Part shown: positions 2 to 20,182 of the stretch, one piece after another
Layout of the letters: each line of letters opens with the position of its first letter
Position numbering within the stretch: the first letter of the stretch is position 1
IMG/VR virus record: IMGVR_UViG_3300042565_000819
Coordinates: 1-20,574 of that record
Direction: 5' to 3' (one strand)
Source: a virus
Length of the DNA: 20,574 bases
Made by a program: the position numbers and the translations under genes
Notes under the pieces: generated by a model
Told to the model about the DNA's origin: nothing
What the model saw: the letters and a program-made list of their open reading frames with translations, nothing else
Database searches by the model: none

Positions 2-184
2 CAACTCATAGAGACCATCCTCAACCTGCCAGAGGAGGAGACAATGACAAAGAGCTCGCTGGTGCAACTCAGAGCAGTCAAACAGAAGGCAACAGGTGTA
101 CGTGATAAAGAGTGCTTCTGCTCTGGAGTACGTAGGAAGGTATGGTATAAAGACTTCTTGACCTGGTATGAAGCTAATACTTGA
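2..184 (+). CDS. C-terminal end of an unknown small basic protein (5' truncated)
   Basis: An open frame runs from the window edge to TGA at 182-184 and gives the last 60 residues of a protein. The visible part is hydrophilic and lysine/arginine-rich. It ends in a compact block with Cys-Phe-Cys, then Arg-Arg-Lys, then aromatic residues (ECFCSGVRRKVWYKDFLTWY). I do not recognise a family; the CxC plus basic/aromatic block could bind metal or nucleic acid, but this is a guess. The frame overlaps the next gene by 17 bp, which is the same tight packing seen in the rest of the window and supports it being real and co-transcribed with the sigma-like gene. Confidence 0.6.
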   Translation, partial: QLIETILNLPEEETMTKSSLVQLRAVKQKATGVRDKECFCSGVRRKVWYKDFLTWYEANT

Positions 185-710
185 CCAATATATCAGCCGC
201 AACTATGAAGAGGTGCTCAAATACACAAAGCACTTCCTCAAGCGACTCAATATACCAAGCTCAATAGATGCAGATGCAGTCATCAACAACGCATATCTAC
301 ACTGTGTGAAAGTAAACATACCAGACATGACTCAAGACAAGGCTAAGAGCTACCTACTCAACACGATCAAGTATGAGTTGATATGGACTCAAGGCTCCAG
401 GACTAAGAAAGATGACATCTACAGATCACAGGAGTACCTAACAGATTGCATTGATGACCCCACAGAGATAGAGCACAAGATAAGAATTGAGAATGACCAC
501 AACTTTAAGAAGGCAATGGTCGAGATATACAGGAACAACTTGGACGATAGGATAAAAAGGATTATATTTGAAGCATACTATGACAAAGGTCACTCAACTC
601 AGACTGCACTGGCTCAGTACTTTGACATCAACAGTACATCGGCATACTTTCTGATACGAGAAATAAAACAAAATATAAAAGAGATACAATATAGGTATGA
701 AGAGTGTTGA
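168..710 (+). CDS. sigma-70-like transcription factor (putative phage late regulator)
   Basis: A 180-residue protein with the two-block layout of a short sigma factor. Residues about 30-90 form a helical region resembling sigma region 2, with acidic DADAVINNAYLH and the segment KSYLLNTIKYELI. Residues about 125-175 form a region-4-like helix-turn-helix: IIFEAYYDKGHSTQTALAQYF, then the recognition-helix-like INSTSAYFLIREIK. The family assignment comes from pattern only; some flavobacterial phage proteins of this kind are annotated as sigma factors. The start overlaps the preceding gene. The last 26 bp contain a copy of the repeated TACAATATAGGTATG element that starts the next gene, so the regulator may control a promoter lying inside its own coding sequence. 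Being just upstream of the packaging and structural genes fits a late-transcription switch. An alternative is a general HTH DNA-binding protein. Confidence 0.55.
   Translation: MKLILDQYISRNYEEVLKYTKHFLKRLNIPSSIDADAVINNAYLHCVKVNIPDMTQDKAKSYLLNTIKYELIWTQGSRTKKDDIYRSQEYLTDCIDDPTEIEHKIRIENDHNFKKAMVEIYRNNLDDRIKRIIFEAYYDKGHSTQTALAQYFDINSTSAYFLIREIKQNIKEIQYRYEEC
667..699 (+). promoter_or_regulatory. repeated late element, copy 1 (AACA-N14-TACAATATAGGTATG)
   Basis: AACA at 667-670 is followed after 14 bases by TACAATATAGGT at 685-696, directly abutting the ATG at 697-699. The element lies within the 3' end of the sigma-like gene. Four other copies with the same spacing relation start genes at 2811, 10129, 14098 and 16688. 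If TACAAT acts as a -10 box, transcription would begin at about the A of the start codon. Confidence 0.6.
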
Positions 711-861
711 CATCATAGGACTTATTACTTACATCCTCGCATGGGGTGTGGTGCTGGCACTGTTCAATGAGAACATGTACCTGCTGTATAAATTTGCAGG
801 TGCAACATTAGCTGCTTATCTAATATTCATAATAATACAACAAAATGAACTACAAAATTAA
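697..861 (+). CDS. small two-helix membrane protein (54 aa)
   Basis: A short frame from ATG 697 to TAA 859-861 that encodes 54 residues with two hydrophobic stretches. One covers about residues 4-23 (IIGLITYILAWGVVLALF) and one about residues 31-47 (AGATLAAYLIFIII). They are separated by a short polar turn containing NEN. It is supported by its start codon sitting exactly on the repeated TACAATATAGGTATG element, by a 14-bp overlap with the sigma-like gene upstream and by a 17-bp overlap with the next gene. The function is unknown. A role at the inner membrane, such as a holin-like or superinfection-related protein, is possible but nothing in the sequence decides it. Confidence 0.65.
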   Translation: MKSVDIIGLITYILAWGVVLALFNENMYLLYKFAGATLAAYLIFIIIQQNELQN

Positions 862-1165
862 AGACGAATTTATTGGTAAGACTATCAAGGTCTACAATAA
901 GCACACAGGAACAAAGGCAGTATCTATTGCCAGCCTTGATATGAGCAAAGTAGAGTATTATATCACAACAGGACTTAAGCATATCTTTGAGGAGGTAGTC
1001 ACTACGACTGCACCAGGTGAAGTATATGTATCTCCATCAGAACTCAAGGGCGCTGATAAACTTGAGGTTACTGTGATAGAGTACAAGGCTGTAGACCCAC
1101 CAATACCAGAGAACGCTCCTAAGCCTAAGAAGAAACGCAAACCAAAGGCTGATGCCAAAGCATAA
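845..1165 (+). CDS. hypothetical protein with basic Pro/Lys-rich tail
   Basis: A 106-residue protein that I do not recognise. The first 85 or so residues look like a small mixed alpha/beta domain with several beta-like stretches (KTIKVYNK, LEVTVIEYKAV). It ends in a disordered tail rich in Pro, Lys and Ala (PKPKKKRKPKADAKA) that could contact DNA. The start overlaps the small membrane protein by 17 bp, and the end overlaps the terminase small subunit by 14 bp. It therefore belongs to the packaging transcription unit and could be a packaging or head accessory factor. That role is inferred from position only. Confidence 0.6.
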   Translation: MNYKIKDEFIGKTIKVYNKHTGTKAVSIASLDMSKVEYYITTGLKHIFEEVVTTTAPGEVYVSPSELKGADKLEVTVIEYKAVDPPIPENAPKPKKKRKPKADAKA

Positions 1166-1565
1166 ACACATAGAGACTCCAGAGGCAATGTGGGAGCTAT
1201 TCGAGAAGTACAAAGAATGGACTAAGAACAACCCACGTTATCAATACTCACTTTCTAATAAGACAGGTGAGGCAACTGCTGTACCACTTGAGAGACCAAT
1301 GACTCAAGTAGGTTTTAGATGCTTTGCTGCTGATATGAATAGTTCAGTGCAGGATTACTTCGCTAATACGGATGGGAGATATTCAGCGTATACGACAATC
1401 TGCACACGCATAGAGGAAGCAATCAGACAAGATCAGATAGAGGGAGGGATGACAGGGCAGTATAATGCCTCCATCACTCAGAGACTAAACAACCTAACTG
1501 AGCGAGTGGATACAACCACCCAAGGTCAGGCTATAAATGATATTAAGGTTACTATTATTAAATAG
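1152..1565 (+). CDS. terS: terminase small subunit (DNA-packaging gp3-like)
   Basis: A 137-residue protein with the typical pattern of the small terminase subunit of Bacteroidetes phages. It has an N-terminal IETPEAMWELFEKYKEW helix, a central RPMTQVGFRCF segment, then YTTICTRIEEAIRQDQIEGG followed by the NxSITQRLNNL block before a polar C-terminus. In this family the protein forms a ring that recognises phage DNA and hands it to the large subunit. It immediately precedes the large subunit, the usual order. The ATG at 1152 overlaps the preceding gene. The gap to terL holds a hairpin and a flanking inverted repeat. Confidence 0.85.
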   Translation: MPKHKHIETPEAMWELFEKYKEWTKNNPRYQYSLSNKTGEATAVPLERPMTQVGFRCFAADMNSSVQDYFANTDGRYSAYTTICTRIEEAIRQDQIEGGMTGQYNASITQRLNNLTERVDTTTQGQAINDIKVTIIK

Positions 1566-1631
1566 TGTATCTTTGACATAAATCTTACTATACTACTAAT
1601 TAAGTGGTATAGCTCAACTATTGCACACTAT
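1562..1631 (+). promoter_or_regulatory. structured terS-terL spacer with nested inverted repeats
   Basis: The 64-bp spacer contains a hairpin, CTATACTACT (1588-1597) pairing with AGTGGTATAG (1603-1612) around an AATTA loop: ten pairs, one of them G-U. Outside it, ATAGTGT (1562-1568, covering the terS stop) is a perfect inverse of ACACTAT (1625-1631, covering part of the terL start codon). No T-run follows the hairpin, so it does not look like a terminator. It could be an RNA fold that hides the terL start, or a DNA site recognised by the packaging machinery. Confidence 0.45.
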
Positions 1632-2781
1632 GGAGATAAAGAGCACAGTAATCTTTGAACGCAACTACGAGGCACTGACAAGTCCAGACCATAGATTCAT
1701 TATCAATGAGGGTGGCTCAAGGTCATCTAAGACATACAGCCTATGCCAGCTTATCATAGTCTACTGCCTACAGAATAGAGGCAAGGTAGTGAGCATCATA
1801 AGGAAGACCTTCCCTGCACTCAGAGCTACAGTGATGCGTGACTTCCTTGAGATCATGAAGGACTTGGATATCTACGAGGTGAGCAAGCACAATAAGTCTG
1901 AGCACATCTATACCTTTGACAATGGCTCTATTGTGGAGTTCTTCTCAGTAGATGATGAGCAAAAGATAAGAGGTAGGAAGAGAGACCTGGCATGGTGCAA
2001 TGAGGCTAATGAGCTGTACTACGATGACTTCACTCAGCTGAACATGAGGACAGAGGGAAAGCTAATCTTTGACTACAACCCGTCTGAGAGCAACTCATGG
2101 CTGTATGAACTACCAGTTGAGGAGAGCATCCTTATTAAGTCAACCTACAAGGACAACCCGTTCCTGCCAGATAGCATCAAGAGACAGATAGAGGACTTGA
2201 AGAGAACAGATGAGGCACAGTATCAGATATACGCACTTGGAGAGAAAGCCATCAGCAAGAGCAACATCTACAGCAACTGGTCATTTGTCAAGCATAGGCC
2301 TGCTAAGTTCACATCCTTTGTCTATGGGCTTGACTTTGGATACAACCACCCTACTGCACTGATACGGGTGTACTGGAGAGATAAGGACATCTACATTGAG
2401 CCTGTGATCTATGAGAGCTACTTGACCACCACTGACCTCATCGCAAGGATGGATCAGTTAGGCATAGATAAGAGCATCAACATACTGGCTGACTACTCAA
2501 GACCTGAGACCATAGCAGAGATAGATAGAGCAGGCTACTACATTGAGAATGCCAACAAGGTAGTGAAGAAAGGGATAGACAACATCAAGACCTTTGGAGT
2601 GATCTGTGAGGAGCACCCTGCACTTAAGAAAGAGTATGAGAACTACAAGTGGAAGAAGATAGGTGACCAGATAACAGATGAGCCAGTCAAGCTGTGGGAT
2701 GATGCCATGGATGCCATCCGATATGCAGCTACATACATCAAGCAGGAGTACTACACTGATGACTCATACCTTGCCTTCTAA
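1630..2781 (+). CDS. terL: terminase large subunit (PBSX-type packaging ATPase/nuclease)
   Basis: A 383-residue motor protein that pumps DNA into the prohead and cuts it. The N-terminal ATPase shows a Walker A motif GGSRSSKT at residues 28-35 and a Walker B-like LAWCNEANE with Glu125; the NEA form is usual in PBSX-type terminases. The C-terminal RNase H-like nuclease shows its acidic residues at Asp235 (YGLDFGYNHPT), Asp288 (LADYSRPE) and the WDDAMDAIRY block at 356-365. I chose ATG 1630 over an in-frame TTG nine bases upstream. The length is at the short end for the family but both domains are complete. No repeated late element precedes it; expression probably reads through from upstream, possibly modulated by the structured spacer. 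Confidence 0.93.
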   Translation: MEIKSTVIFERNYEALTSPDHRFIINEGGSRSSKTYSLCQLIIVYCLQNRGKVVSIIRKTFPALRATVMRDFLEIMKDLDIYEVSKHNKSEHIYTFDNGSIVEFFSVDDEQKIRGRKRDLAWCNEANELYYDDFTQLNMRTEGKLIFDYNPSESNSWLYELPVEESILIKSTYKDNPFLPDSIKRQIEDLKRTDEAQYQIYALGEKAISKSNIYSNWSFVKHRPAKFTSFVYGLDFGYNHPTALIRVYWRDKDIYIEPVIYESYLTTTDLIARMDQLGIDKSINILADYSRPETIAEIDRAGYYIENANKVVKKGIDNIKTFGVICEEHPALKKEYENYKWKKIGDQITDEPVKLWDDAMDAIRYAATYIKQEYYTDDSYLAF

Positions 2782-2813
2782 CAGGATTCGCTTCAAGATA
2801 CAATATAGGTATG
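2780..2813 (+). promoter_or_regulatory. repeated late element, copy 2 (TAACAG-N13-TACAATATAGGTATG)
   Basis: AACA at 2780-2783 overlaps the terL stop codon. TACAATATAGGT follows at 2799-2810, 19 bases downstream of the AACA start, and ends at the ATG of the next gene at 2811. The short terL-to-tail gap contains little else. The GG of the element is too close to ATG to serve as a Shine-Dalgarno sequence, which favours a transcriptional role. Confidence 0.6.
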
Positions 2814-4307
2814 GCAACAACAATCATAGCACAGCCTCAAGACTTCACACCTGCATACAATGAGTGCAAGTTCATAGTGAAGTCAACCAATGTGAACAAG
2901 GCAGGATTCAGATACATCTTTGAGGTGTTTGAGGCAGGAACGGCAACAAGGATAGGATACTACAAAGCACTGCCAGCTTATGGCAATGGCAATGGTGAGC
3001 AGGACTTATCTAAGCTACTTAGTAACATGGTGAGCTTTGACTTCAACCCGTACATCAGTACCTTTTATAATGCTGTGAACTCATACTATAACTACGATAT
3101 TAAGTTTGGTGAAGAGTATATCTTTGACCTAAGCTACACAGCCTCATTGGTTGACAATGCAGGTAACGTTCGCATCACAGCAACGCATCCCTTCCAGGTA
3201 GGTGATCAAGTGAACATCACACAAGCTGACTTAGGTGTGGCCAATCCAGGAGTGGAAGGACTGCATACAGTGATTGCCATCACAGGCACAACTAACTTCA
3301 CCATCAACGCATTGTGGGCTGATGTAACTGATGCAACTATCAACGGCTCAGTTGAGTATGCTGATAAGAGAAAGACCATCAACCTTAACATAGTGAGCAC
3401 ACTTGATAAGTATGTGTTCAACGGTGTGCAGCCATGGATTGATATGCCGTACTGGGATGAGACTAACTATGAGCTTGACAACGTACTTGGCCAATGGCTC
3501 ACTGACCAGCCTACAACATTCAGCTGCACACTTGGTCAGGACTTATGGCTCAACCTTAAGGACCCAGGCATAGCACCTACCAATAAGAGGGTGTACTTTG
3601 AGAATGACAACGGTGATCTGTTCTACAAGGCTGTGAGTGGAGCTGACTACATTAAAGGTGTGGCAGTTGGTGTGAACAACTATGGCTCATTGACTGTGGT
3701 GAGTGGCACTGCTCCATTGGTCAAGCCTACAACCAAAGCATACCAAATATGGTACAGTGACGGGATATTCAACCCTGTGAAGTCATTAGCATACACCATC
3801 AACATAGATAGAAGGATACTAATCTCTGAGAGTCACATCCTATTCCTTGACCGTATGGGTTCATGGAGCAGCTTTGCCTTCCAGCTCAAGAGCTATGAGA
3901 AGCTAAACATAAAGAGAGAGACCTACAACAAGGATGTACCTGGCAGCGTGGTTGACTCACAATGGCAGTATAAAAGTTATGAACAAGGGACTGTTAATTT
4001 CAACACCCAAGTGAGTAAGACTATTGACCTCAACACCAACTGGATGAGTGAGAGTGCAGGAGTGTACTTCCAGCAGTTGGTTACATCACCACAGACTTAC
4101 ATTAAGAATGTAGTGTATCACATCACAGAGGAGGGAGAACCACTTTATGATGAGGATGGCTGCATCATACACGTACCTGAGAGCACTGAGTACATCAGCT
4201 GCAACGTTGTGAACAACACCTTTGACATACAGAGAGAAAGGAACAAGCATCTGATTAGACAACAGCTACAAGTTAGGTTATCAAACAACGACATAATCAA
4301 TGGTTAA
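2811..4307 (+). CDS. beta-rich virion protein, probable tail/adsorption component
   Basis: A 498-residue protein that is rich in Asn, Thr, Tyr and aromatic residues and low in charge clusters, as structural phage proteins often are. Residues about 114-182 form a recognisable small inserted beta-domain: NVRITATHPFQVGDQVNI, then GLHTVIAITGTTNFTIN. This VGD...G.HTV...T.FT pattern is a common add-on module in phage tail proteins. The rest has no motif I can name. It opens the tail gene block behind the second copy of the repeated element, and its stop overlaps the start of the 932-residue protein by 8 bp. I infer a distal tail, baseplate or adsorption role; the exact part is unknown. Confidence 0.6.
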   Translation: MATTIIAQPQDFTPAYNECKFIVKSTNVNKAGFRYIFEVFEAGTATRIGYYKALPAYGNGNGEQDLSKLLSNMVSFDFNPYISTFYNAVNSYYNYDIKFGEEYIFDLSYTASLVDNAGNVRITATHPFQVGDQVNITQADLGVANPGVEGLHTVIAITGTTNFTINALWADVTDATINGSVEYADKRKTINLNIVSTLDKYVFNGVQPWIDMPYWDETNYELDNVLGQWLTDQPTTFSCTLGQDLWLNLKDPGIAPTNKRVYFENDNGDLFYKAVSGADYIKGVAVGVNNYGSLTVVSGTAPLVKPTTKAYQIWYSDGIFNPVKSLAYTINIDRRILISESHILFLDRMGSWSSFAFQLKSYEKLNIKRETYNKDVPGSVVDSQWQYKSYEQGTVNFNTQVSKTIDLNTNWMSESAGVYFQQLVTSPQTYIKNVVYHITEEGEPLYDEDGCIIHVPESTEYISCNVVNNTFDIQRERNKHLIRQQLQVRLSNNDIING

Positions 4308-7098
4308 GATAGTACTATCAACAGGGGTGCTGGATGTTGCTGAGACTCTGTCACTGCCTATCACATTCAACATAGGAGATATCAGAGACCTATCCTCTCG
4401 CAAGGGTACATTCTCAAAGACTGTCACATTGGATGGCACTAAGAACAACAATGAGCTGTTAGGCCATTACTACGATGTGAACATCCAAGCAGGCACATTC
4501 AACATCAACACCTTGACTAAGTGCCAAGTGATACAGAACGGTGTGCCAATCTTAGATGAGGCATTGCTCCAGTTGGTGAGCGTGAACAAGGTGCAGAGCA
4601 ACAACAGCTATGAGGATGAGGTAACCTACAGCGTATTGATTAAGGATAGCAGAGCGGAGTTCTTTACAGCCATCACTAATGCCTATCTCACTGACTTAGA
4701 CTTTAGTGACCTCAACCATGCCTTTGACTCTGCTGCTATAGCTGGCACATTCAACAACACTGTGGCAGATGGATACAAGTATCTGATGCCATACAATGAT
4801 ACCAACGTGTTCCAGGCTAATGACTTCAAGCCTGCTATCTATGCCAAGACATATTGGGATAGGATATTCGCTGTGGCTGGCTTCACATACACATGGAGTG
4901 AGATAGCGGCTGCACACTTTGATAAGTTGCTGATACCATACAACGGTGATGTGAACAACCAGGACTATGATGACTACAGAGTTGAGGCAACCAACACATG
5001 GACTACTACTAATGTGCAGGCGGTTGGTCAAAACATAACGTTTCAAGAGGCTATTGACTCAGGATGGAGTGAGCTGATAGATACACAGGGTATCTTTGAT
5101 CCTACTACAGGAGAGTACACTACACCGATAAGCACTAACACTAATGCAGGTGAGCACTATGTGTACAGCTTGACAATAGGTGGTACAATAGATTTGAACA
5201 ATACGAGTGGTGGTACGGCTGCACTTGTAAACAGTGAGGACTTTACTACTGGATTCACCTACAACAGATATAGAGTCTTTGCAAGGGTACGTGTTGCAGG
5301 TAGTGGTAACGCTGTAGTATATGGGTCTTTTGGATGGATAGCTGCTGTACCTGGTAATTTCTTAGCGACAGGTATTACTAATGTGTTGACATTCTCAGAT
5401 ACCTTTAACATACCTGTAGCCTACAATGGTACGGGCGTTGCTAATGGTATTGACTTAGGAGATATACAAATACTTGATATAGGTGTTGAGGTTAAGACAT
5501 TTCCAAGTATTGTAGGCAATCAACAGCCATATTCAATCAATGCTTTTTGGCGTAACTCAACCCCTCCATATGCTACACCAGCAGCAGTCAACGTAGTCCT
5601 TGACCTGAACTTTATCAACATGGTGATATTGCCAAGCAACAACATACAGATCACTGGAGGCACGTTGACAATGAACCAATATGTCCCTGTTGAGATTAAG
5701 CAGTCAGACTTCGTGAAGGGCATACTACAGATGTACAACCTTTATGTTGAGCAGGATATTGACAACCCCTACAACCTTGTGTTGAGACATAGGGATGAGT
5801 ACTATGACTCAGGAGCTGAGAAGGACTGGAGTGAGAAACTTGCTAAGGATAGAGGGCAGGACTTAATGTTCCTTCCTGACTTGACTAAGAAGAGGCTCAA
5901 GCTAACCTATGAGGCTGATGAGGATACGGCTAATAAATTATACACACAAGCGACTGGTGAGATATACGGTCAGATAGAATACACTTTTGATAATGAATAT
6001 GTTAAGGATGTTGAGACTCAGGCTTTACTGTTCTCACCTACTCCAGTTTACTCTACGAGTTTTGGTGCATACCTTCCAGCCATAAACGGTGCAGCACCCA
6101 ACACAAACATCCGCATCTTGTATGATGGCGGTGAGCAGATATGCCAGCCGTTTGACATAGTTGACTTTGGCACAACAGGTCAATATGGCTTGACTGACTA
6201 CCCTATGATTGGTCACTTCAACAATGCGTTAACACCTACCTTTGATATTAACTTTGGCACGAATGACTTTTACTTCTATGAGACAACATCACTGACAGCA
6301 AACAACCTGTACAACTTATACTGGAGGCGTACAGTCAACCAGATAAACGTAGGTAAGATGTTGACAGCTATGTTTGACCTTAATGAGGTGGACATACAGT
6401 CACTCAAGCTCAATGATAAGATATACATTGACAACTCATGGTGGAACATTAACAAGATTGCTGATTATAACGCTAACAACAACCAGCTCACTAAGGTAGA
6501 GTTGATAAGCATAGATACTGAGATTGACCTTGCACCGTTTCTTACTGGTGCAGGTAATCCTATTGGTGATACTATCACTGCTATAGGTATAGATTCTATC
6601 TTAAGGACAAGGTCAATGACCAGCAATGTGATCATGCCTGGTGCAGATGCTATGGTGTTTGGTAAGGGTAACACTGTGACTGCTGGCACAAGGGGTGTTG
6701 TGATTGGTGACGGTCAGACCTTGAGTGAGGATGGTATGGTGGTGAGCAACTTGACTGTGACTGGTACTATCAATGGTGATGTGGTGGTGAACAGTGCTAA
6801 GTACATTGCAACTATAAGCCAAGGGGGAACATCCGACCCAACTGTCACTGTACTTGAGAATAGTATAGGTGACATTGTGTGGACAAGGGCAGCAGCAGGT
6901 AGATATCAAGGTACATTGACAGGTGCATTTTCAGACCAAGATAGAACATATCTAATTATAAGCAATACAGCTATAGACACGTATCTTAGAATATTCTGGG
7001 TGAGTGCTAATGTGGTGGAGGTAAGGACTTTAGACTTTACAAATACTTTACAAGACGGGAGACTTAGTTATAACACAATAGAAATAAGAACATACTAA
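4300..7098 (+). CDS. large tail hub/baseplate-like protein (932 aa)
   Basis: The N-terminus (LPITFNIGDIRDLSSRKGTFSKT, then GTKNNNELLG) is a pattern found at the start of tail proteins in Bacteroidetes phages. Around residues 465-550 there is VPVEIKQSDFVKGILQMYNL, then WSEKLAKDRG. Near 705-730 comes LKLNDKIYIDNSWWNINKI, a layout reminiscent of hub proteins of the gp27/Tal kind. Residues about 780-830 hold short repeats (GKGNTVTAGTRGVVIGDGQTL, then VSNLTVTGTING) like beta-helical fibre stalks. The last 100 residues look like a separate beta-sandwich tip. It directly precedes the tape measure gene. I infer a tail-tip hub that may carry its own binding tip; a tail-associated enzyme is an alternative, but I see no catalytic motif. 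Confidence 0.55.
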   Translation: MVKIVLSTGVLDVAETLSLPITFNIGDIRDLSSRKGTFSKTVTLDGTKNNNELLGHYYDVNIQAGTFNINTLTKCQVIQNGVPILDEALLQLVSVNKVQSNNSYEDEVTYSVLIKDSRAEFFTAITNAYLTDLDFSDLNHAFDSAAIAGTFNNTVADGYKYLMPYNDTNVFQANDFKPAIYAKTYWDRIFAVAGFTYTWSEIAAAHFDKLLIPYNGDVNNQDYDDYRVEATNTWTTTNVQAVGQNITFQEAIDSGWSELIDTQGIFDPTTGEYTTPISTNTNAGEHYVYSLTIGGTIDLNNTSGGTAALVNSEDFTTGFTYNRYRVFARVRVAGSGNAVVYGSFGWIAAVPGNFLATGITNVLTFSDTFNIPVAYNGTGVANGIDLGDIQILDIGVEVKTFPSIVGNQQPYSINAFWRNSTPPYATPAAVNVVLDLNFINMVILPSNNIQITGGTLTMNQYVPVEIKQSDFVKGILQMYNLYVEQDIDNPYNLVLRHRDEYYDSGAEKDWSEKLAKDRGQDLMFLPDLTKKRLKLTYEADEDTANKLYTQATGEIYGQIEYTFDNEYVKDVETQALLFSPTPVYSTSFGAYLPAINGAAPNTNIRILYDGGEQICQPFDIVDFGTTGQYGLTDYPMIGHFNNALTPTFDINFGTNDFYFYETTSLTANNLYNLYWRRTVNQINVGKMLTAMFDLNEVDIQSLKLNDKIYIDNSWWNINKIADYNANNNQLTKVELISIDTEIDLAPFLTGAGNPIGDTITAIGIDSILRTRSMTSNVIMPGADAMVFGKGNTVTAGTRGVVIGDGQTLSEDGMVVSNLTVTGTINGDVVVNSAKYIATISQGGTSDPTVTVLENSIGDIVWTRAAAGRYQGTLTGAFSDQDRTYLIISNTAIDTYLRIFWVSANVVEVRTLDFTNTLQDGRLSYNTIEIRTY

Positions 7099-7099
7099 C

Positions 7100-9667: not shown

Positions 9668-10116
9668 CAAGTTATCAAGCACTAATCAACCACATTGAGG
9701 CCTTCTATAACAACCATCTACAGGTTAAGAAGGTAGGCTCAGACTTCACAGAGCAATTACCTAACTTTGCTACCAAGGATGAGAGATATCCTTTGGTGTT
9801 CATAGCTCCAGTCTTTGCATCTCCGACCACAAACACCAACACGATCAGCTTAGAGATATACTGCTTTGACATTATCCAAAAGGATAGAGCCAACATCACA
9901 GTGATACTGTCTGACTGTCATCAAATATTGGTTGACCTGGTCAATCAGTTCACATTCAGTGATGACTACTCCTTTGATATCATAGGCTTACCATCCCTCA
10001 CACCTATGAACAACCAACTACTTGACTATGCTGCTGGCTGGATGATGAGTTTGGATGTTGACATGAGCAACTGGACAGATTGCCAGGTACCACTTCTAAC
10101 AAATTTGCCAACGTAG
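9664..10116 (+). CDS. putative tail terminator/completion protein
   Basis: A 150-residue protein. The pattern is an N-terminal helix followed by KVGSDFTEQLPNFATKDERYPLVFIAP, a strand pair with LEIYCFDIIQKDRANI, a helix ILSDCHQILVDLVNQF, and a final strand GWMMSLDVDMSNWTDCQVP. This alternation resembles the alpha/beta fold of tail completion proteins in siphoviruses, and the position after the tape measure suits a tail assembly role. The start codon overlaps the tape measure stop as ATGA, implying coupled translation. The assignment comes from general shape, not a diagnostic motif, so it should be held loosely; hypothetical tail protein is the safe reading. Confidence 0.45.
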   Translation: MTSYQALINHIEAFYNNHLQVKKVGSDFTEQLPNFATKDERYPLVFIAPVFASPTTNTNTISLEIYCFDIIQKDRANITVILSDCHQILVDLVNQFTFSDDYSFDIIGLPSLTPMNNQLLDYAAGWMMSLDVDMSNWTDCQVPLLTNLPT

Positions 10117-10131
10117 TACAATATAGGTATG
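10098..10131 (+). promoter_or_regulatory. repeated late element, copy 3 (TAACAA-N13-TACAATATAGGTATG)
   Basis: TAACAA covers 10097-10102, inside the 3' end of the upstream gene. TACAATATAGGT follows at 10117-10128, immediately after that gene's stop codon, and abuts the ATG at 10129. AACA-to-TACAAT spacing is 19 bases, as in copies 2 and 5. It would start the adsorption cassette as its own unit. Confidence 0.6.
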
Positions 10132-10785
10132 GCACGCAGACAAAAGATATCACAGATGACTCCGAAAGGGGCTAATCTTGACTTCACAGATTTACTTGAG
10201 GTAAGTGTTTTGAGTGGCTTTGGATACAACACATACTCTATCACAGGCCTTGAGTTGATGAGAGCTGCTGCATCATTAAATAACTTGTACACTCAGACAG
10301 CATCAAGCACACCTGTCACCAACACAACTACTGAGACCTCTCTACTTGATGGCGGCTTAGGTAGTTTGAGTATCCCTGCTGATGGTTTCAATGTAGGTGA
10401 TAGCTTCCATGTTATACTAACAGGCCATGTCTCAGCTGTAAACAACCATACCTTGACTATAAGGATAAAGTCTGGCAGTGTTATATTTGCAACAACAGGA
10501 GCAATAACAATGGCAGGAACAACTGGTAAGCATTGGAAGCTGGAAGTGTTTTTTACTGTGAGGACTATAGGAGCTGCTGGTGTAGCATCCATAGCTACAG
10601 GAGGTGCTTTCATGTACACTAAGAATGCCTCTACTAACTTTGAAGGCATTAACTTTAGTACTGAGAACACCACTACCTTTGATACAACTATAAGCAACAC
10701 ACTATCAATCACAGCTCAGTGGGATACTGCCAACGTTGGTGATTCTATATACTCAGAAATATTTACACTTAATAAAACTTATTAA
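10129..10785 (+). CDS. putative tail fibre / minor virion protein
   Basis: A 218-residue protein with two parts. The N-terminal 45 or so residues (KISQMTPKGANLDFTDLLEVSV, then YNTYSITGLEL) match a short module often found at the front of phage structural proteins of flavobacterial phages, probably a virion anchor. The remaining residues, rich in Thr, Ser, Gly and Asn, read as a beta-sandwich beginning with LLDGGLGSLSIPADGFNVGDSFHVIL and followed by strands with regular alternation, a pattern typical of trimeric fibre tips. It opens the adsorption cassette behind copy 3 of the repeated element. A fibre or decoration role is inferred; no enzyme motif is visible. Confidence 0.5.
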   Translation: MARRQKISQMTPKGANLDFTDLLEVSVLSGFGYNTYSITGLELMRAAASLNNLYTQTASSTPVTNTTTETSLLDGGLGSLSIPADGFNVGDSFHVILTGHVSAVNNHTLTIRIKSGSVIFATTGAITMAGTTGKHWKLEVFFTVRTIGAAGVASIATGGAFMYTKNASTNFEGINFSTENTTTFDTTISNTLSITAQWDTANVGDSIYSEIFTLNKTY

Positions 10786-10787
10786 CA

Positions 10788-11057
10788 ATGAACACAGATA
10801 ATGACATACTAATTGCAAACCAGGGGAGCTTTGTAGTCAACAACACAGTAGAGAAGACTGTAACTATCAACGCTATAGTGGTACTTGAGGATACTGTATT
10901 CAACACGATCAAGATAGCTGGCTCAGATGTGAAGTCAACTTATATTGCTGCACCAGCAACAGCTGTGAAGGCAGGTACTATCATCAGAGCTACAGCGGCT
11001 CAACAGTTTAGTGGAGTTAGGTTAACATCTGGAAGTGTATTGCTAATACTTGCATAG
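10788..11057 (+). CDS. small beta-rich virion-associated protein
   Basis: An 89-residue protein consisting almost entirely of short beta-like stretches. The last 50 residues (FNTIKIAGSD, then AVKAGTIIRATAAQQFSGVRLTSGSVLLI) follow a pattern I associate with small phage structural add-on domains, in which an extended strand leads to an F.G..LTSGSV ending. The gene begins two bases after the previous stop, in an AACAATG context with no Shine-Dalgarno sequence, and sits between two adsorption genes. A tail-fibre accessory or capsid-decorating role is possible. I do not recognise a named family. Confidence 0.5.
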   Translation: MNTDNDILIANQGSFVVNNTVEKTVTINAIVVLEDTVFNTIKIAGSDVKSTYIAAPATAVKAGTIIRATAAQQFSGVRLTSGSVLLILA

Positions 11058-11058
11058 T

Positions 11059-12111: not shown

Positions 12112-12359
12112 AACTAACACAACTAACAACAGAAGAAAAGTTGACCTATGTAGGACTTTTGACAGAGCTACAAAAGAATGAGTTGGTAGGTCAATTATAT
12201 GCACCTGATTCTTACTTTAATCCTATTCAAGACTTGAATGATAATTGGATAATTTCAGTAGAGGAGATGGAGCAGTGCGTTAATCCTGATTATCTTTGGG
12301 TAAAAGACCTTGACTTGATACCATACGAACCAAAACCAACACCCCCACCTTTTGACTAA
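12108..12359 (+). CDS. hypothetical protein downstream of the receptor-binding gene
   Basis: An 83-residue acidic protein. It has an N-terminal helix (LTTEEKLTYVGLLTELQKNELV) and a central SYFNPIQDLNDNWIISVEEMEQC block followed by a Pro-rich end (YEPKPTPPPFD). I have an impression of similar short proteins next to fibre genes in Bacteroidetes phages, but no named function. The ATGA overlap with the receptor-binding gene and the one-base TAATG overlap with the next gene tie it to the adsorption cassette. A fibre chaperone or small attachment component is plausible by position alone. Confidence 0.55.
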   Translation: MKLTQLTTEEKLTYVGLLTELQKNELVGQLYAPDSYFNPIQDLNDNWIISVEEMEQCVNPDYLWVKDLDLIPYEPKPTPPPFD

Positions 12360-12811
12360 TGGCAAGATACGCTAACACTGGAGAGTTTAATGTCCTTTAT
12401 CCTACCAGGAGAAGGATGGCTACGATATTGAAACGTATTATCAGAAATGATGTTGTTGATGGTGAAGGCACATTAGTAGAGTCTATCAGAATCAATGCTA
12501 AGATTACAGGCTTTGAGAAACTTGAGATACAAATCATTGCTATGTACTACTTCATATTTCTTAACAACGGTGCATACTTATGGAACAATGGTATAATTAC
12601 ACCTCGTGACTACGTTGCCACGTTCACAGATGAGCTGAATGCAGCAGGCATCACAGCTGAGATATACTCACAGTACACTGAGTGGTTAACAAAAAGATTT
12701 CCTATCCTACAAGTAGCAGAAGTACTTGAAAAAAACCAAAGAATCACTTATACCTTTGAGGCTATAGACCCACCTGCTGGCTTCCAACCAGGCGTTGCAT
12801 TAGACGTTTAG
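12359..12811 (+). CDS. hypothetical protein at the end of the adsorption cassette
   Basis: A 150-residue protein with mixed helix and strand. It has a basic N-terminal stretch (TRRRMATILKRIIRN), a hydrophobic core segment IQIIAMYYFIFLNNGAYLW, then YSQYTEWLTKRFPILQVAEVL and a final strand ITYTFEAIDPPAGFQPG. The IYSQYTEWLTKRFPIL and FEAIDPPAGF phrases look conserved, but I cannot name a family. The start shares one base with the previous stop (TAATG). Its 3' end overlaps the convergent minus-strand gene by 12 bp, so both genes end in the same short stretch. It is probably a virion or assembly protein. Confidence 0.55.
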   Translation: MARYANTGEFNVLYPTRRRMATILKRIIRNDVVDGEGTLVESIRINAKITGFEKLEIQIIAMYYFIFLNNGAYLWNNGIITPRDYVATFTDELNAAGITAEIYSQYTEWLTKRFPILQVAEVLEKNQRITYTFEAIDPPAGFQPGVALDV

Positions 12812-13534
12812 TTCCTTCTTCATACCTAACATATTAAAGGTCATGATTAGTGATAGGTTAGTCACCTCATTAAACTTAGTTAAGTCCTCATTGCATAGGC
12901 TGTAGATTAGTCTCTCCCAACCCCATTTTTTCTCACTCTTTTTTAGAGCTATCTCCTTTGCCTCATCAGATGTTGCAGGACGTTCATCCTCATCCTCATC
13001 ACTTCCATCCTCATCTGTGAACAGATTAGCATAGGTGATCATGAATGACTCTCTGTAAGCAAGATACTCAGGCAGGATACCGTACACATCATTGATACAC
13101 ACCTCATCAAAGATACTGCATCTTAGACTTGGCTTAAACTCATACGGCTCAAACACTGTCTCTCCCCATTCATTGGTCATCACCTTTCGATATATGATAG
13201 ATGCAATGTGGCCAACGTGCTGATTATAGTCTTTGGAGAAGTAGTGCTCAAGGTCAATGAACTCACCTACAGTAAGGGTGTTCAATGGCTTATAGTGATA
13301 CTCACCTATTACGTGCTTATAGTTCTTGGATGGCTCAGAGTTTATGAAGGTGATCTTAGCCAGCATCTCACTCACCTCACTTATGTCAAGGTCTTCTAAG
13401 TCATCAGATGGTATGTCAGCCAGGGCAGAAAGTATCTCTATCTCCCTGGTGAACACCTCTTGTATAGAATACAGCTCTCTAATCTCTTTGAACTGTAATA
13501 CATCTATCTCACTCCACGACTTCGGTAGGTACAT
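12800..13534 (-). CDS. minus-strand protein B, paralogue of protein A; possible tail assembly chaperone
   Basis: A 244-residue protein on the minus strand. Its N-terminus (LPKSWSEIDVLQFKEIRELY, then REIEILSALADIPSDDLEDL) lines up with the N-terminus of the neighbouring minus-strand protein. A later segment (LTVGEFIDLEHYF, then HVGHIASIIYRKV) lines up with that protein's LSVRDTKHIDKVM and ISEMLAILFKRT. A very acidic patch (TDEDGSDEDEDE) precedes a C-terminal helix pair. The start overlaps the upstream partner by 26 bp in the +1 frame, so the two are probably translated together. Tail assembly chaperones often come as such overlapping pairs near the tape measure. No slippery sequence is evident in the overlap, and the role is inferred. 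Confidence 0.6.
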   Translation of the reverse strand: MYLPKSWSEIDVLQFKEIRELYSIQEVFTREIEILSALADIPSDDLEDLDISEVSEMLAKITFINSEPSKNYKHVIGEYHYKPLNTLTVGEFIDLEHYFSKDYNQHVGHIASIIYRKVMTNEWGETVFEPYEFKPSLRCSIFDEVCINDVYGILPEYLAYRESFMITYANLFTDEDGSDEDEDERPATSDEAKEIALKKSEKKWGWERLIYSLCNEDLTKFNEVTNLSLIMTFNMLGMKKELNV

Positions 13535-14054
13535 CCTTAGGCATTTGTTTAGCTAACTTCTGACCTACCTCAACTAAGTAAGGAACAGCAATCTCTGCCT
13601 TGAGCTCTCTGATTATCTTTGCTTTGAGCTTAATGTGTGCATCTGTATAGTGCTCAACCTTTGTCAAGTCAGTACGTTTAAACAGGATGGCCAGCATCTC
13701 TGAGATGTATCCCTTATGTCTTGAGTGCATAACCTTGTCAATGTGCTTTGTATCCCTAACAGATAGCTTGAATGTATCCTCAAAGGCGGTGTAAGTGTAG
13801 TTCATGTGCTCAAAGGACGGTTGTAGCTCTGGCTTACCACTAAGATTGTTGAACTGCTTAACACATTCCTTGAACTCCTCAATAGATACATCATCCCAGT
13901 CTGCCTCTGGCACTCCTAACAGAGTGAACACGTCAATGTGTTTCTCAATAGAATCCAGCTCTTGATTTGCATGGATTGTTGTGATGTCCTCAAACTGTTG
14001 AACCGTCAACTCATTCAATTGGTTGGGTACTTCTTTACCTAAAATTGTTACCAT
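13509..14054 (-). CDS. minus-strand protein A, first of a paralogous pair; possible tail assembly chaperone
   Basis: A 181-residue acidic helical protein beginning VTILGKEVPNQLNELTVQQFED. I chose the ATG at 14054 over an in-frame TTG 18 bases upstream because MVTILGKE is the more natural start. Helical blocks follow: KHIDVFTLLGVPEADWDDVS, then IDKVMHSRHKGYISEMLAIL, then a long basic helix to the C-terminus. The first block matches the neighbouring protein B in spacing and hydrophobic pattern, so the pair looks like an old duplication. The small size, acidic character and pairing are reminiscent of siphovirus tail assembly chaperones, which normally sit between tube and tape measure genes; here the pair lies between fibre and head genes and is inverted. 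Confidence 0.6.
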   Translation of the reverse strand: MVTILGKEVPNQLNELTVQQFEDITTIHANQELDSIEKHIDVFTLLGVPEADWDDVSIEEFKECVKQFNNLSGKPELQPSFEHMNYTYTAFEDTFKLSVRDTKHIDKVMHSRHKGYISEMLAILFKRTDLTKVEHYTDAHIKLKAKIIRELKAEIAVPYLVEVGQKLAKQMPKDVPTEVVE

Positions 14055-14067
14055 AAATATAATTTTT

Positions 14068-14100
14068 AACAAATATAATACTTTTTACAATATAGGCATG
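14068..14100 (+). promoter_or_regulatory. repeated late element, copy 4 (TAACAA-N12-TACAATATAGGCATG)
   Basis: AACA at 14068-14071 and TACAATATAGGC at 14086-14097 abut the ATG at 14098. One base differs from the other copies (GGCATG instead of GGTATG). It lies in the 43-bp gap between divergent genes, where it is the only plausible plus-strand start signal. It fixes the start of the protease gene at 14098. Confidence 0.62.
14070..14077 (-). promoter_or_regulatory. possible host-type promoter (-7 box TATATTTG) for the minus-strand pair
   Basis: On the minus strand, TATATTTG (complement of 14070-14077) matches the Bacteroidetes -7 consensus TAnnTTTG. A transcript would begin near 14063, about nine bases before the minus-strand ATG at 14054. 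No clear TTTG -33 box is visible at the expected distance. It overlaps the AACA half of plus-strand late element copy 4. Confidence 0.35.
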
Positions 14101-15075
14101 GACAGACCAGTATACAAGATCACTATTGATGAGGCCTACTCAGATGGGGAGGACTTAGGTATGGAGATGATTGCCTTCACCAATAAGCCTGCTATTAAGG
14201 TTAAAGGTATGGCATTCAATTCTCATGTTGCTCCTATGACATTCAGTGACTCAGTCAAGATGCGTATTGTTGCACCTGCCATGATACCAATGAACATCTA
14301 TAGACAAGATGAGGACGGTGAAGAGTATGATGTTCAATTCTCAGCAGAGGTGATTGAGCAGATACACGCCAAGTTCATGCTTAATCTTAGCAACAAGAAC
14401 ATCTTTAACCTTGAGCATGATCAAGATGAGAAAGTGCCTGCATACATCCTTGAGGCCTGGATAGTAGACAGTCCAGAGACTGACAAAGCATTCACAACAT
14501 ACGGCATTGAGGTACCTAAAGGGACGTTGATGTTGACAAGCCAAGTAACTGACAGAGAATACTATGATGCACTGGTTGAGTCTGGTCAAGTAGGTTACTC
14601 TATTGAGGGATTCTTAGGCATGAAATTATCGGAACAATTAAAATTAAATACAATGAAGTTACCAGATGGAGAACACATGATTGAGGATAAGATCTACGTT
14701 GTTAAAGACGGAGAAATTATCGAGATCAAAGAAATGCCTACAGAGATGGAAGCAGAAATGGCTGCCGACCCAGTAGCAGAAGAGGAAGCTGAAGTAGCAG
14801 CAGAGAACCCAGAAGCAGAGGCTGAGGATGCTGAGGCTGATGCACCAGTACAAGAGGAGATGGCTATTGACCCTGCGGTTGATACAGAAGCTATCCTTGC
14901 TATCGTAGCACCAATGCTTGAGGAGCACATGAATGCAGTGATTAGAATGATTGCTGACTTAAAGAACCAACTTGAGGAGAGTCTTGCTGTTGAGACAGAA
15001 ACAGAAACAGAGAGTGTGGAGTTGACTTCACATGAGAAATTTAAAGAATTTGTAAAATTTTCAAAAACCAAATAA
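14098..15075 (+). CDS. XkdF-like prohead protease fused to a scaffold-like acidic tail
   Basis: A 325-residue protein. Residues 1-185 match the XkdF-type serine protease that matures phage capsids: a buried-looking strand ending NIFNLEHDQ with His107, the segment VPAYILEAWIVDS, then GQVGYSIEGF with Ser168. His107 and Ser168 are the likely catalytic pair. From about 212 to 270 the chain turns into a Glu/Ala-rich acidic helix (EMEAEMAADPVAEEEAEVAA), then a coiled coil, ending in HEKFKEFVKFSKTK. This fits a scaffold fused to the protease, as found in several phages. The start at 14098 is set by the repeated element; an in-frame ATG at 14023 would read into the divergent gene. The capsid gene follows after one base. 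Confidence 0.78.
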   Translation: MDRPVYKITIDEAYSDGEDLGMEMIAFTNKPAIKVKGMAFNSHVAPMTFSDSVKMRIVAPAMIPMNIYRQDEDGEEYDVQFSAEVIEQIHAKFMLNLSNKNIFNLEHDQDEKVPAYILEAWIVDSPETDKAFTTYGIEVPKGTLMLTSQVTDREYYDALVESGQVGYSIEGFLGMKLSEQLKLNTMKLPDGEHMIEDKIYVVKDGEIIEIKEMPTEMEAEMAADPVAEEEAEVAAENPEAEAEDAEADAPVQEEMAIDPAVDTEAILAIVAPMLEEHMNAVIRMIADLKNQLEESLAVETETETESVELTSHEKFKEFVKFSKTK

Positions 15076-15076
15076 C

Positions 15077-16009
15077 ATGAACCGTAATTTAAAATTCAAT
15101 TTAGATATTGAAACAAACGCACTTTTAGCTGCGAACCCAGAGGAGTTTTATTCAAAGGCTTATTTATCAAGCCCTGACATTCCTAACAACTTCCGTACTT
15201 TACCAGGTGTGAAGTCAAAAACAAAATTAGCCAATGTAGTATTTGGTCAAGTGTTGCAAGCATACAACTGTGCTTTCTCACCAAGTACTGACCAATTAGA
15301 TGCTATTGACATTGATGTATGTTCATTGTCTGCAATGGCTGAGCTTTGTCAGTTTGATTTAGAGCAATCATTTTTAGCTTTGCAAATGACAAAAGGATCT
15401 AATGGTGACTTCACTGTTGCATCTTTCATGGCATACTACTGGAACGAGATGGCTTTGACTATTGGTCAAGACATTGAGGTGTTGAGATGGCAAGGTAATG
15501 ATGCATCTCTTGATCCATTATTGTCTTTGTGTACTGGATACTTATTCAAGATGTTCTATGATACAGATGTTATAGGTTTATATGATGGAGCTATCACTAC
15601 ATCTAATGTATTGACTCAATTAGAGGCTATGCTTAACGCTGCTCCTGCATCTATAGTAAGACGTAAAGCTGACTTAAGATTTTATGTTTCAACAAACGTA
15701 GCTAACGCATATGAGTTGAAAGCAGCATCTGGTAACACTCAGACATTCGTTACTTTACCATTAGGATTAACTTTCTTAGGTATCAATGTAGTGACTTGTG
15801 AAGGTATGCCAGATAACACTATGGTGTTGACATTGAAAAACAATCTTATATACAGTTTTGATGCTGAAGGAGACTCTAAAGCATTGAAAGCTATCAACTT
15901 AACTGACACAGTTGCTGAGCCTGTATTGAGAACTCGTGCCAACATGAAGGTAGGTTTCCATTATACCAACCCTACTGAGATTGTTTTGTATAACGCATTC
16001 TACATCTAA
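15077..16009 (+). CDS. major capsid protein
   Basis: A 310-residue protein directly after the protease-scaffold gene, the standard place for the capsid subunit. The composition fits an HK97-fold capsid: a helical N-terminal part (YSKAYLSSPDIPNNFRTLPG), a helix-rich peripheral domain (FMAYYWNEMALTIGQDIEVL, then VLTQLEAMLNAAP) and a beta-rich end (LGINVVTCEGMPDNTMVLTL, NMKVGFHYTNPTEIVLYNAF). Three cysteines sit in the first third. Codon choice looks different from the tail genes, with many tta, gct and cgt codons, as might be expected of the most abundant protein. The start is ataacATG without a Shine-Dalgarno sequence. A strong hairpin terminator begins seven bases after the stop. Confidence 0.82.
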   Translation: MNRNLKFNLDIETNALLAANPEEFYSKAYLSSPDIPNNFRTLPGVKSKTKLANVVFGQVLQAYNCAFSPSTDQLDAIDIDVCSLSAMAELCQFDLEQSFLALQMTKGSNGDFTVASFMAYYWNEMALTIGQDIEVLRWQGNDASLDPLLSLCTGYLFKMFYDTDVIGLYDGAITTSNVLTQLEAMLNAAPASIVRRKADLRFYVSTNVANAYELKAASGNTQTFVTLPLGLTFLGINVVTCEGMPDNTMVLTLKNNLIYSFDAEGDSKALKAINLTDTVAEPVLRTRANMKVGFHYTNPTEIVLYNAFYI

Positions 16010-16015
16010 ATATAA

Positions 16016-16044
16016 AGGGAGGTAGTAAGTGCCTCCCTATTTTT
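16016..16044 (+). terminator. hairpin terminator after the capsid gene
   Basis: AGGGAGG (16016-16022) pairs perfectly with CCTCCCT (16032-16038) around a nine-base loop, followed by TATTTTT. It starts seven bases after the capsid stop. The tube gene lies beyond it, so it probably works as a partial terminator, or the tube gene has its own start site. Confidence 0.85.
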
Positions 16045-16065
16045 AACCTTTAAAAAAATATACCT

Positions 16066-16608
16066 ATGAGCTGTGAAGCACTAATAGCCATTGAAAAAAG
16101 CTGTGATAACAATAGCGGTGGCATCAAAAAAATTTATATCAATCTACAGGATAATGTAGACATGGATACATTAGCAGTGGTTGACCCTGTAGGTACACCT
16201 GCTGAGCAGTATGCTATTGGCACACTTGACTTAGTAGTTGCTGCTGATCCATTTACTGAGTTTGAGTTCAGACGTAATACATCTGGATACACAGAGGAGA
16301 GCAATATTGACTTAATCAATGGCTCAAGTTTTGTGACTCAGACTATCAACCTAATGTTCCACAGAAGAGAGGCAGCTAAGTCTAATGCAATCAAGGTACT
16401 TGGTTCTGGACAGCAGTACTTATCTGCAATAGTAGAGGATCAGAACGGCATCCTTTGGTTCTTCCCATACTTGCAGTTGACTGCATCTGGTGAAGGCTCA
16501 GGTACAGCTCGTGCAGATGGCTCTAAGTACAGTGTAACATTACTTGCTGAGAATGACCAGTTGGCCTATACAATGACTACTGGTGTGTTGACTGGTTTAC
16601 TATCTTAA
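16066..16608 (+). CDS. probable major tail tube protein
   Basis: A 180-residue protein with the look of a siphovirus tube subunit. The beginning is MSCEALIAIEKSCDNNSGGIKKIYI; beta-rich segments follow (EFEFRRNTSGYTEES, then SFVTQTINLMFHRRE) with a helix-like AAKSNAIKVLGSG, and the end holds GSKYSVTLLAENDQLAYTM. The pattern of a Cys-rich N-terminus, a VTQTINL strand and a final strand is common in Bacteroidetes phage tube proteins. It stands alone between two strong terminators, which fits a highly expressed single-gene transcript. The upstream sequence AATATACCTATG resembles the late element ending AATATAGGTATG with GG changed to CC. Confidence 0.68.
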   Translation: MSCEALIAIEKSCDNNSGGIKKIYINLQDNVDMDTLAVVDPVGTPAEQYAIGTLDLVVAADPFTEFEFRRNTSGYTEESNIDLINGSSFVTQTINLMFHRREAAKSNAIKVLGSGQQYLSAIVEDQNGILWFFPYLQLTASGEGSGTARADGSKYSVTLLAENDQLAYTMTTGVLTGLLS

Positions 16609-16627
16609 CCCTATCATATCTATAAAC

Positions 16628-16656
16628 AGCCTCACTACTTAGTGGGGCTTTTTTTT
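16628..16656 (+). terminator. hairpin terminator after the tail tube gene
   Basis: AGCCTCACT (16628-16636) pairs with AGTGGGGCT (16641-16649) around an ACTT loop, nine pairs with one G-U, followed by a run of eight T (16649-16656). This is the strongest intrinsic terminator in the window. A late element begins one base beyond the T-run. Confidence 0.9.
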
Positions 16657-16690
16657 AACAATTATTTTTTAGTAGTACAATATAGGTATG
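16657..16690 (+). promoter_or_regulatory. repeated late element, copy 5 (TAACAA-N13-TACAATATAGGTATG)
   Basis: AACA at 16657-16660 directly follows the T-run of the terminator, and TACAATATAGGT at 16676-16687 abuts ATG 16688. Because transcription arriving from upstream should stop at the terminator, this copy is the best argument that the element initiates transcription. Confidence 0.68.
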
Positions 16691-20174: not shown

Positions 20175-20182
20175 TACCTTTG
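20152..20182 (+). promoter_or_regulatory. Bacteroidetes-type promoter reading into the control region
   Basis: TTG at 20152-20154 and TACCTTTG at 20175-20182, separated by 20 bases, fit the -33 / -7 consensus TTG...TAnnTTTG. A transcript would begin near 20189. There is no sizeable gene between there and the terminator at 20279, so the product might be a short RNA of roughly 130 bases. Confidence 0.5.

Follow-up and report, generated by a model that had tools for sequence, protein, structure and literature searches.

The complete IMG/VR record IMGVR_UViG_3300042565_000819, a stretch of viral DNA of 20,574 bases that we call the window, carries five copies of a two-part element whose downstream end runs into the start codon of a gene. 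This raises the question of what reads the element: an RNA polymerase of the host, a polymerase or sigma factor of the phage, or the ribosome. We conclude that the element is almost certainly a promoter. The joint reading that we prefer, in which host polymerase serves the early genes and a phage-encoded sigma factor, the predicted product of open reading frame (ORF) 168-710, serves five late promoters that are mostly fused to start codons, is quite probable.

Five copies of the element in the window

Exact copies of TACAATATAGGYATG start at 685, 2799, 10117, 14086 (a variant with C) and 16676, all on the plus strand, as a first-pass annotation of the sequence had listed them. No other copy occurs in the window, and the pattern read backwards has no match. 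With up to three mismatches, eight matches were found, a number that none of 100 dinucleotide shuffles reached (mean 2.29, largest 7). The 11-base core with up to two mismatches was not enriched (12 matches against a shuffle mean of 8.9, with 18 shuffles reaching 12), so that the signal sits in the exact copies. The core is TACAATATAGG at all five sites and, as had been stated before, does not resemble the TAnnTTTG box of the host. The upstream half AACA begins at 667, 2780, 10098, 14068 and 16657, that is 18, 19, 19, 18 and 19 bases before TACAAT, in agreement with the annotation; its longer form TAACA holds for four of the five copies, while copy 1 reads AAACA. The five ATGs open ORFs of 54, 498, 218, 325 and 111 amino acids (aa), which upholds the claim that the element stands at gene starts; 14098 is the first ATG of a frame for which the mechanical ORF list begins at the upstream TTG 14023. 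The parts of the five sites are as follows (near and far clade refer to the relatives treated below).

666..670, plus strand: site 1, −35 half-site AAACA, within the putative sigma gene at codons Lys167-Gln168; every representative in both clades has AAA as the Lys codon
685..697, plus strand: site 1, −10/discriminator/initiator TACAATATAGGTA; predicted +1 at 697, the A of the ATG of the 54-aa ORF
697..861, plus strand: hydrophobic ORF of 54 aa, first gene of the terminase block
2779..2783, plus strand: site 2, −35 half-site TAACA, the TAA of which is the stop codon of TerL
2799..2811, plus strand: site 2, −10/discriminator/initiator; predicted +1 at 2811, start of the 498-aa protein
10097..10101, plus strand: site 3, −35 half-site TAACA
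10117..10129, plus strand: site 3, −10/discriminator/initiator; predicted +1 at 10129, start of the 218-aa protein
14067..14071, plus strand: site 4, −35 half-site TAACA
14086..14098, plus strand: site 4, −10/discriminator/initiator TACAATATAGGCA; predicted +1 at 14098, start of the XkdF-like protease (Peptidase_S78_2)
16628..16649, plus strand: terminator-like hairpin whose T run extends into the −35 half-site of site 5
16656..16660, plus strand: site 5, −35 half-site TAACA
16676..16688, plus strand: site 5, −10/discriminator/initiator; predicted +1 at 16688, where the 111-aa protein encoded ahead of the portal gene starts

Copy 5 had been described as lying behind a strong terminator. The hairpin at 16628-16649 does precede it; however, such hairpins are no commoner in the window than in shuffled sequence (8 against a shuffle mean of 11.1). 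Because the T run of the hairpin is the upstream part of the −35 half-site (16628-16660), terminator and site 5 promoter would share bases. A second terminator-like hairpin lies at 16016-16038, between the 310-aa structural gene and a 180-aa gene, with no exact late promoter directly downstream. A generic sigma-70 promoter scan of the window was also at chance (50 matches against 49.1 in shuffles).

Conservation of the element in related phages

Relatives were collected with the protein of ORF 168-710 (best 80 of 140) and with its profile (best 80 of 345), and a far-clade profile search supplied the best 80 of 191 relatives; distant full-length members of the family share 47-52% identity. The element, its positions, its conservation, the constraint on its half-sites and the intergenic enrichment of host-type boxes, all given in this and the following sections, were computed directly. 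The exact 11-mer TACAATATAGG occurs in 29 of 30 records, on a single strand in each, and its backwards control matches once (G015). In near-clade contigs the five sites stand at the corresponding genes, a few with a single-base change; the contig of G007 is truncated ahead of site 3. The combined scans showed all five sites in six far contigs (G014-G019), with cores such as TATAATATAGG or AATAATATAGG. Scattered matches with one or two mismatches occur elsewhere in the relatives without these site features.

A leave-one-genome-out matrix scan over columns −12 to +1 gave 68 matches in 14 near-clade sequences, all on the plus strand and all at five orthologous places, and none for the backward control. 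Ten sequences have five matches each, G009 has six (site 1 twice) and G007, G010 and G011 have four. On the gene map, none of the matrix matches falls among early genes, and the motif is not as common inside genes as at starts, a possibility that had been raised earlier. A start codon stands at +1 in 59 of the 68 matches; the remaining nine belong to site 1 in one subclade and to site 3 in G001. The far-clade scan, which took seven of the eight far contigs (all but G020), yielded 20 matches in the 7 contigs, all on the plus strand with a start codon at +1, and one match for the backward control.

The tie to start codons is also seen in loci that were fetched only by their sigma protein. Here, plus-strand AATATAGG is followed one base later by a start codon in 114/167 (near) and 107/149 (far) cases, and the corresponding fractions for four control words are 0/6, 6/46, 1/64 and 1/21 (near) and 0/54, 0/24, 2/90 and 2/66 (far). 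Two pattern scans of IMG/VR looked for the element in other phage groups. The first one, for AACA-N14-20-TACAATATAGG with no ATG required, found at least 52 related loci with 61 sites and at least 67 unrelated loci with 68 sites; among the matches listed, ATG comes next in 55/61 sites of related loci versus 3/68 of unrelated ones. The second one, with ATG required, added 113 new loci among the matches listed, at least 66 of them related (76 sites) and at least 47 unrelated, and the sigma gene lies within the fragment in 5 of these 66. Five of the 47 unrelated loci were inspected; they have one site each, one of them with a second near-match, and the ORFs of two of these five show nothing of this phage group. 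The element may be used by another phage group too.

Promoter or translation signal

Copy 1 lies within the 3' end of ORF 168-710, an ORF that the first-pass annotation of the element does not mention. In 19 sigma-gene representatives fetched by protein only (the outlier L202 included), 96 conserved codon columns have a mean synonymous entropy of 0.91 bits and eight are at zero: Gln75, Lys140, Ala149, Lys167 (AAA, in the −35 half-site) and Gln174-Tyr175-Arg176-Tyr177 (CAA TAT AGG TAT, in the −10 half). The chance that four named columns all fall among 8 zero columns of 96 is about 2e-5 if relatedness is ignored. Of the 140 unique sigma genes retrieved with the protein, 136 have exactly CAATATAGGTAT for the latter four residues, three have AGA and one AGT. 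In the far clade by itself (mean 1.05 bits over 90 columns of 23 representatives), entropy is zero at Lys2, Lys165, Gln172, Tyr173 and Tyr175; Lys165 is the Lys of the −35 half-site, and the last three residues belong to the −10 half, so that these four columns are at zero in both clades.

An element that is usually followed by a start codon after one base could in principle act in translation initiation, with transcription coming from elsewhere. We regard this as extremely improbable, because the element precedes five genes only, with the other genes of each block in the window lacking it, stays in place where the start codon has shifted by as much as 16 bases, has a conserved far half-site about 30 bases upstream and, at copy 5, stands behind a terminator-like hairpin. 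The start codon has in fact moved repeatedly: the ATG is 16 bases after GG at site 1 of one subclade, the start codon is 12 bases after GG at site 2 of three far phages, and at site 4 it is 3 bases after GG in four far phages and 2 in G010. In G001, site 3 is kept (position 10258 of the turned contig; L203-L204), no relative of the 218-aa gene was found and the next ORF has its ATG 17 bases after GG. At all these shifted start codons the element is kept, and TA directly follows GG in all except G010, which has one extra base. The earlier proposal of a phage-specific promoter is strongly supported by conservation at five syntenic genes on one strand, by start codons that shift while the element stays, and by the synonymous constraint on both half-sites of copy 1.

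In sigma-70 numbering, TAnAAT at −12 to −7 places +1 on the A of the start codon, and YA is a usual initiator. In three far phages the 111-aa gene begins with GTG at the same place, so that a purine at +1 and a start codon are both kept. Since the predicted +1 is the A of the ATG, most late mRNAs would be leaderless, which we consider likely on the strength of the sequence. This part of the annotation holds as far as the position and the kept start codon are concerned, but not in all lineages, as some have the start codon 2, 3, 12, 16 or 17 bases after GG.

The end of the element, TATAGG, resembles the T7 promoter, and a T7-like single-subunit RNA polymerase starting at GG would produce a 3-nt leader, GGUAUG. 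This is very unlikely. Pfam and PHROG scans of 10 ORFs from G004, a near-complete relative, which include nine of about 21 early ORFs with the longest early one among them, revealed no RNA polymerase family, and neither did Pfam scans of 20 window proteins; a genome search with PF00940 also had no match, which is uninformative because its control matched nowhere either. A −35 half-site set apart by 18 or 19 bases is also at odds with such a polymerase, and the sigma-like gene would be left unexplained.

ORF 168-710 as a candidate sigma factor

The candidate sigma factor is encoded by the ORF that contains copy 1.

168..710, plus strand: predicted two-domain (sigma2 and sigma4) sigma factor of the extracytoplasmic function (ECF) type, 180 aa, from AlphaFold2 folds of two clades

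AlphaFold2 modelled the window protein and one far-clade member (mean predicted local distance difference test 79.1 and 79.5; predicted template modelling score, pTM, 0.41 and 0.40) both as all-helical, with two bundles and a low-confidence linker between them. In Foldseek searches of the PDB, 45/50 (window) and 46/50 (far clade) of the matches listed are sigma factors by title; the first four include 9n9q chain C, Mycobacterium tuberculosis SigL and E. coli SigE, and the best E-values are 2.5e-3 and 5e-4. With VIA-align, applied to the window model only, the second bundle was superposed on sigma4 of 3mzy (Z 8.7, 2.3 Å over 73 residues) and on region 4 of E. coli SigE with −35 DNA (2h27; Z 7.7, 2.9 Å over 69), and the first bundle on sigma2 of 5uxx (Z 7.3, 3.8 Å over 76) and 4lup (3.3 Å over 74). 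We favour a sigma fold because both bundles match sigma factors in order and other folds are scarce in the lists.

ECF sigma factors consist of sigma2 and sigma4, lack sigma1.1 and sigma3 and have roughly 180-200 aa. The protein of ORF 168-710, with 180 aa and a modelled sigma2 bundle followed by a sigma4 bundle, fits this layout and is predicted to be an ECF-type sigma factor. Promoters of such factors have a −35 element with AAC, roughly 30 bases ahead of +1. Relative to the predicted +1, AAC is located at −30 (17), −31 (12) or −29 (3) in 32/45 dereplicated sites, and TAA at −32 in 28; the remaining 13 sites have no AAC at −29 to −31, several of them having AAT, which replaces AAC in several copies of sites 2 and 5. 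The 45 sites remained from 57 dereplicated windows after 12, largely chance matches, had been dropped; the position table retains these 12, and one of them, L050 (TACAATATAGGTAG), may be a real site with an ATG 22 bases on. We consider it probable that the predicted phage sigma factor reads the element.

Several observations weigh against this reading. The fold comparison is modest, with VIA-align Z scores (up to 8.7) in the range that the tool calls common for helical bundles and with E-values and pTM that are only those given above. The family of ORF 168-710 has no convincing sequence match in Pfam, PHROG or the PDB; a Sigma70_r4_2 search of 14 records gave three weak matches, none over the cut-off and none at the sigma gene; hhalign detected no signal to E. 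coli RpoE with a profile of low effective sequence number (Neff ~2); and its probability for gp36 of phage phiEco32 was 0.15% compared with 0.40% for an unrelated phiEco32 protein, again at low profile diversity. With profiles of Neff ~2, the absence of a profile match says little. On the DNA side, the matrix misses diverged sites and finds 2 to 4 of 5 per far contig, related contigs are non-independent observations, and the leave-one-out training sets contain near relatives. AATATAGG also occurs on the opposite strand (29 near, 17 far), one control word reached the 6/46 listed above, and the Arg codon of the −10 half varies in the far clade (AGG in 19/22, AGA in 3/22). Start codons 12 to 17 bases downstream imply that leaderlessness is dispensable. 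Finally, the sequence data link sigma factor and promoter by co-occurrence, not by binding.

The failure of sequence searches to recognise ORF 168-710 as a sigma factor, together with weak matches of a few family members to helix-turn-helix families, would also suit a different arrangement, in which the 180-aa phage protein is a DNA-binding activator and the host holoenzyme or an alternative sigma factor of the host uses the element. This is unlikely in view of two separate bundles that match sigma2 and sigma4 in order, of models from both clades that list mostly sigma factors, and of a −10 half that differs from the TAnnTTTG of the host.

Host-type promoters and early genes

A phage sigma factor for late genes would leave the early genes to the host. 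In 22 sequences, TTG-N17-22-TAnnTTTG has 166 matches, of which 49 are intergenic, with an intergenic share of the sequence of 6.4%. Twenty-two of the 49 boxes are located 22-32 bases before a start codon, and for others this distance is 5-6 or 87-127 bases; a further set, mainly minus-strand boxes, has no gene nearby, and G012 has no intergenic box at all. In several cases the boxes precede replication and recombination genes. Of the three intergenic boxes of G004, one precedes a 76-aa gene, one a primase-like gene of 777 aa, and one is close to the end of the contig. G002, G005, G007 and G008 have a box at a distance of 2.8-3.3 kb upstream of the sigma gene, followed after 22 bases by a gene of 167 or 187 aa. 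The same upstream stretch of G004 has ORFs on the plus strand except for one small one, among them those for an Erf-like annealing protein and an exonuclease, and we infer that the ORFs upstream of the sigma gene form one early operon that ends with it. Also in the early region of G004 are genes for a C5 cytosine methyltransferase and for a small protein that has a DnaA-type helix-turn-helix (L241, 4136-5329 and 3756-4136, minus strand). The window has two host-type matches near its end.

20395..20425, plus strand: TTG-N20-TACATTTG, 23 bases before the ATG at 20449, whose frame runs off the window; candidate early gene
20152..20182, plus strand: TTG-N20-TACCTTTG, with the box in the gap after 20174; a weaker case

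Downstream of the five-site element are genes for terminase (small and large subunits, 1152-2781), large proteins of tail type assigned by their position, the XkdF-like protease (Peptidase_S78_2, 14098), a virion structural protein (15077) and the portal (17023), whereas host-type promoters front replication and recombination genes. The element would therefore represent a late class, as judged from gene content.

Both candidate promoter types meet at site 4, which lies within a divergent gap as had been noted earlier; the minus-strand ORF pair begins at about 14054.

14070..14077, minus strand: host-type −7 box TATATTTG, overlapping the −35 half-site of site 4; candidate promoter of the divergent gene pair

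The overlap of TATATTTG with the −35 half-site is present in 22/22 distinct site-4 windows, and in the window the box is 15 bases before the first ATG of the pair. Phage holoenzyme bound to site 4 would cover the divergent host-type box, which makes the two candidates for mutually exclusive promoters. The two minus-strand genes (244 and about 181 aa; 12800-14054 of the window) lie amid the late region and are present in 21/22 sequences, the other being G020, whose contig ends before that point; Pfam had no match for them.

Genome and probable host

Genomes of the phage group have about 30 kb. In G009 (L213-L214) an identical site 1 sequence is found at 97 and 29174, near both contig ends and 29,077 bases apart; this repetition suggests an end-redundant, complete genome of about 29.1 kb. 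The window has no near DNA match in the INPHARED phage collection and its sigma protein has no match there; the terminase matches in 1311 records. The top 20 of these, at 32-34% identity, are phages of Parabacteroides, Bacteroides and Flavobacterium, and these best matches together with the TAnnTTTG boxes suggest that the host is probably a member of the Bacteroidota. By number, phages of Vibrio (322) and Streptococcus (212) lead the terminase matches, so that we state the phylum with reserve. In GTDB genomes searched for the sigma gene, 42 stretches fit the pattern and none was a relative, and no host or prophage was identified.

A candidate early and late transcription programme

We propose a two-part promoter with a −35 half-site TTnTAAcA (AAC from about −30/−31), a −10/discriminator TA[C/T]AATATAGG and an initiator YA, which would be read by the host core RNA polymerase with the ECF-type sigma factor of ORF 168-710. 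At first, host holoenzyme would start at TTG/TAnnTTTG promoters and transcribe the early operons; relatives have one such promoter some 3 kb ahead of the sigma gene. Once accumulated, the sigma factor would activate five late promoters, one of them at the end of its own gene and each at the head of a block: terminase, tail, tail-fibre-like, protease/structural and portal. In most phages, four or all five of the late mRNAs would begin at AUG and thus be leaderless. The identity of the sigma factor, its reading of the element, the early and late timing, the start site and leaderlessness are what we infer here.

We further speculate, tentatively and with somewhat more doubt than belief, that promoter and mode of translation switch together. 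Early mRNAs would have leaders, and nearly all virion proteins, or at any rate those encoded first in each block, would come from leaderless ones; this would happen in a phylum without Shine-Dalgarno signals in which leaderless messages are rare. The sigma gene would end in its own promoter, and the sigma factor would shut off the divergent host promoter. The programme gives widely sampled, uncultivated small phages a candidate order of transcription, names its likely regulator and makes the clear prediction that late transcripts begin at the A of AUG. If true, Bacteroidota would gain a sigma/promoter pair, and leaderless translation could be tested in a natural setting that does without Shine-Dalgarno pairing.

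Comparison with known systems

No report of this promoter or sigma factor was found in open-licence PubMed Central among the matches listed. The best fold match of both models in the PDB, at 14% identity, is 9n9q chain C, which we take to be the sigma factor of a structure titled as an RNA-guided transcription complex; nothing in the phage data suggests RNA guidance. Like gp55 of phage T4, the predicted sigma factor is small, highly diverged and has late promoters of its own. T4 late promoters show no −35 sequence conservation and the sigma4-like part of T4 is a separate protein, gp33, as far as the excerpted text of PMC2988020 describes them, whereas here the promoters are predicted to have a −35 half-site and the sigma factor a sigma4-like domain of its own.

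The primary sigma factor of Bacteroidota has the consensus TTTG/TAnnTTTG in the excerpt of PMC6847099. Its TAnnTTTG boxes are present between the phage genes, but the late element does not match them. Leaderless phage mRNA as such is not new, since phage transcripts are often leaderless according to part of PMC5312081. In Flavobacterium, leaderless mRNAs account for 5.5% in F. psychrophilum (PMC9723704, in extract) and 87% of mRNAs have leaders over 10 nt in F. johnsoniae (from the same excerpt of PMC6847099), so that five leaderless late messages would, if real, be an unusual concentration.

The passages of PMC4281155 and PMC4331800 at hand describe gp36 of Escherichia phage phiEco32, with relatives in SU10 and 7-11, as an ECF-like sigma factor with tAATGTATAtA promoters. 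In both systems a phage sigma factor (predicted here) acts on host core polymerase, structural genes have promoters of their own and early promoters are of host type. The family of ORF 168-710 has no detectable sequence relation to gp36, the genomes have about 30 kb and the hosts are probably Bacteroidota. The phiEco32 motif, as given in those passages, is one block 6-8 nt upstream of the start site, in contrast to two half-sites and a usually fused start codon in our phages; the element is not of that TAATGTATA type, its core being AATATAGG with a separate −35. In its mode of action the predicted sigma factor would resemble phiEco32 gp36, and it differs from it in its two-part promoter, in the fusion to start codons and in the likely host phylum.

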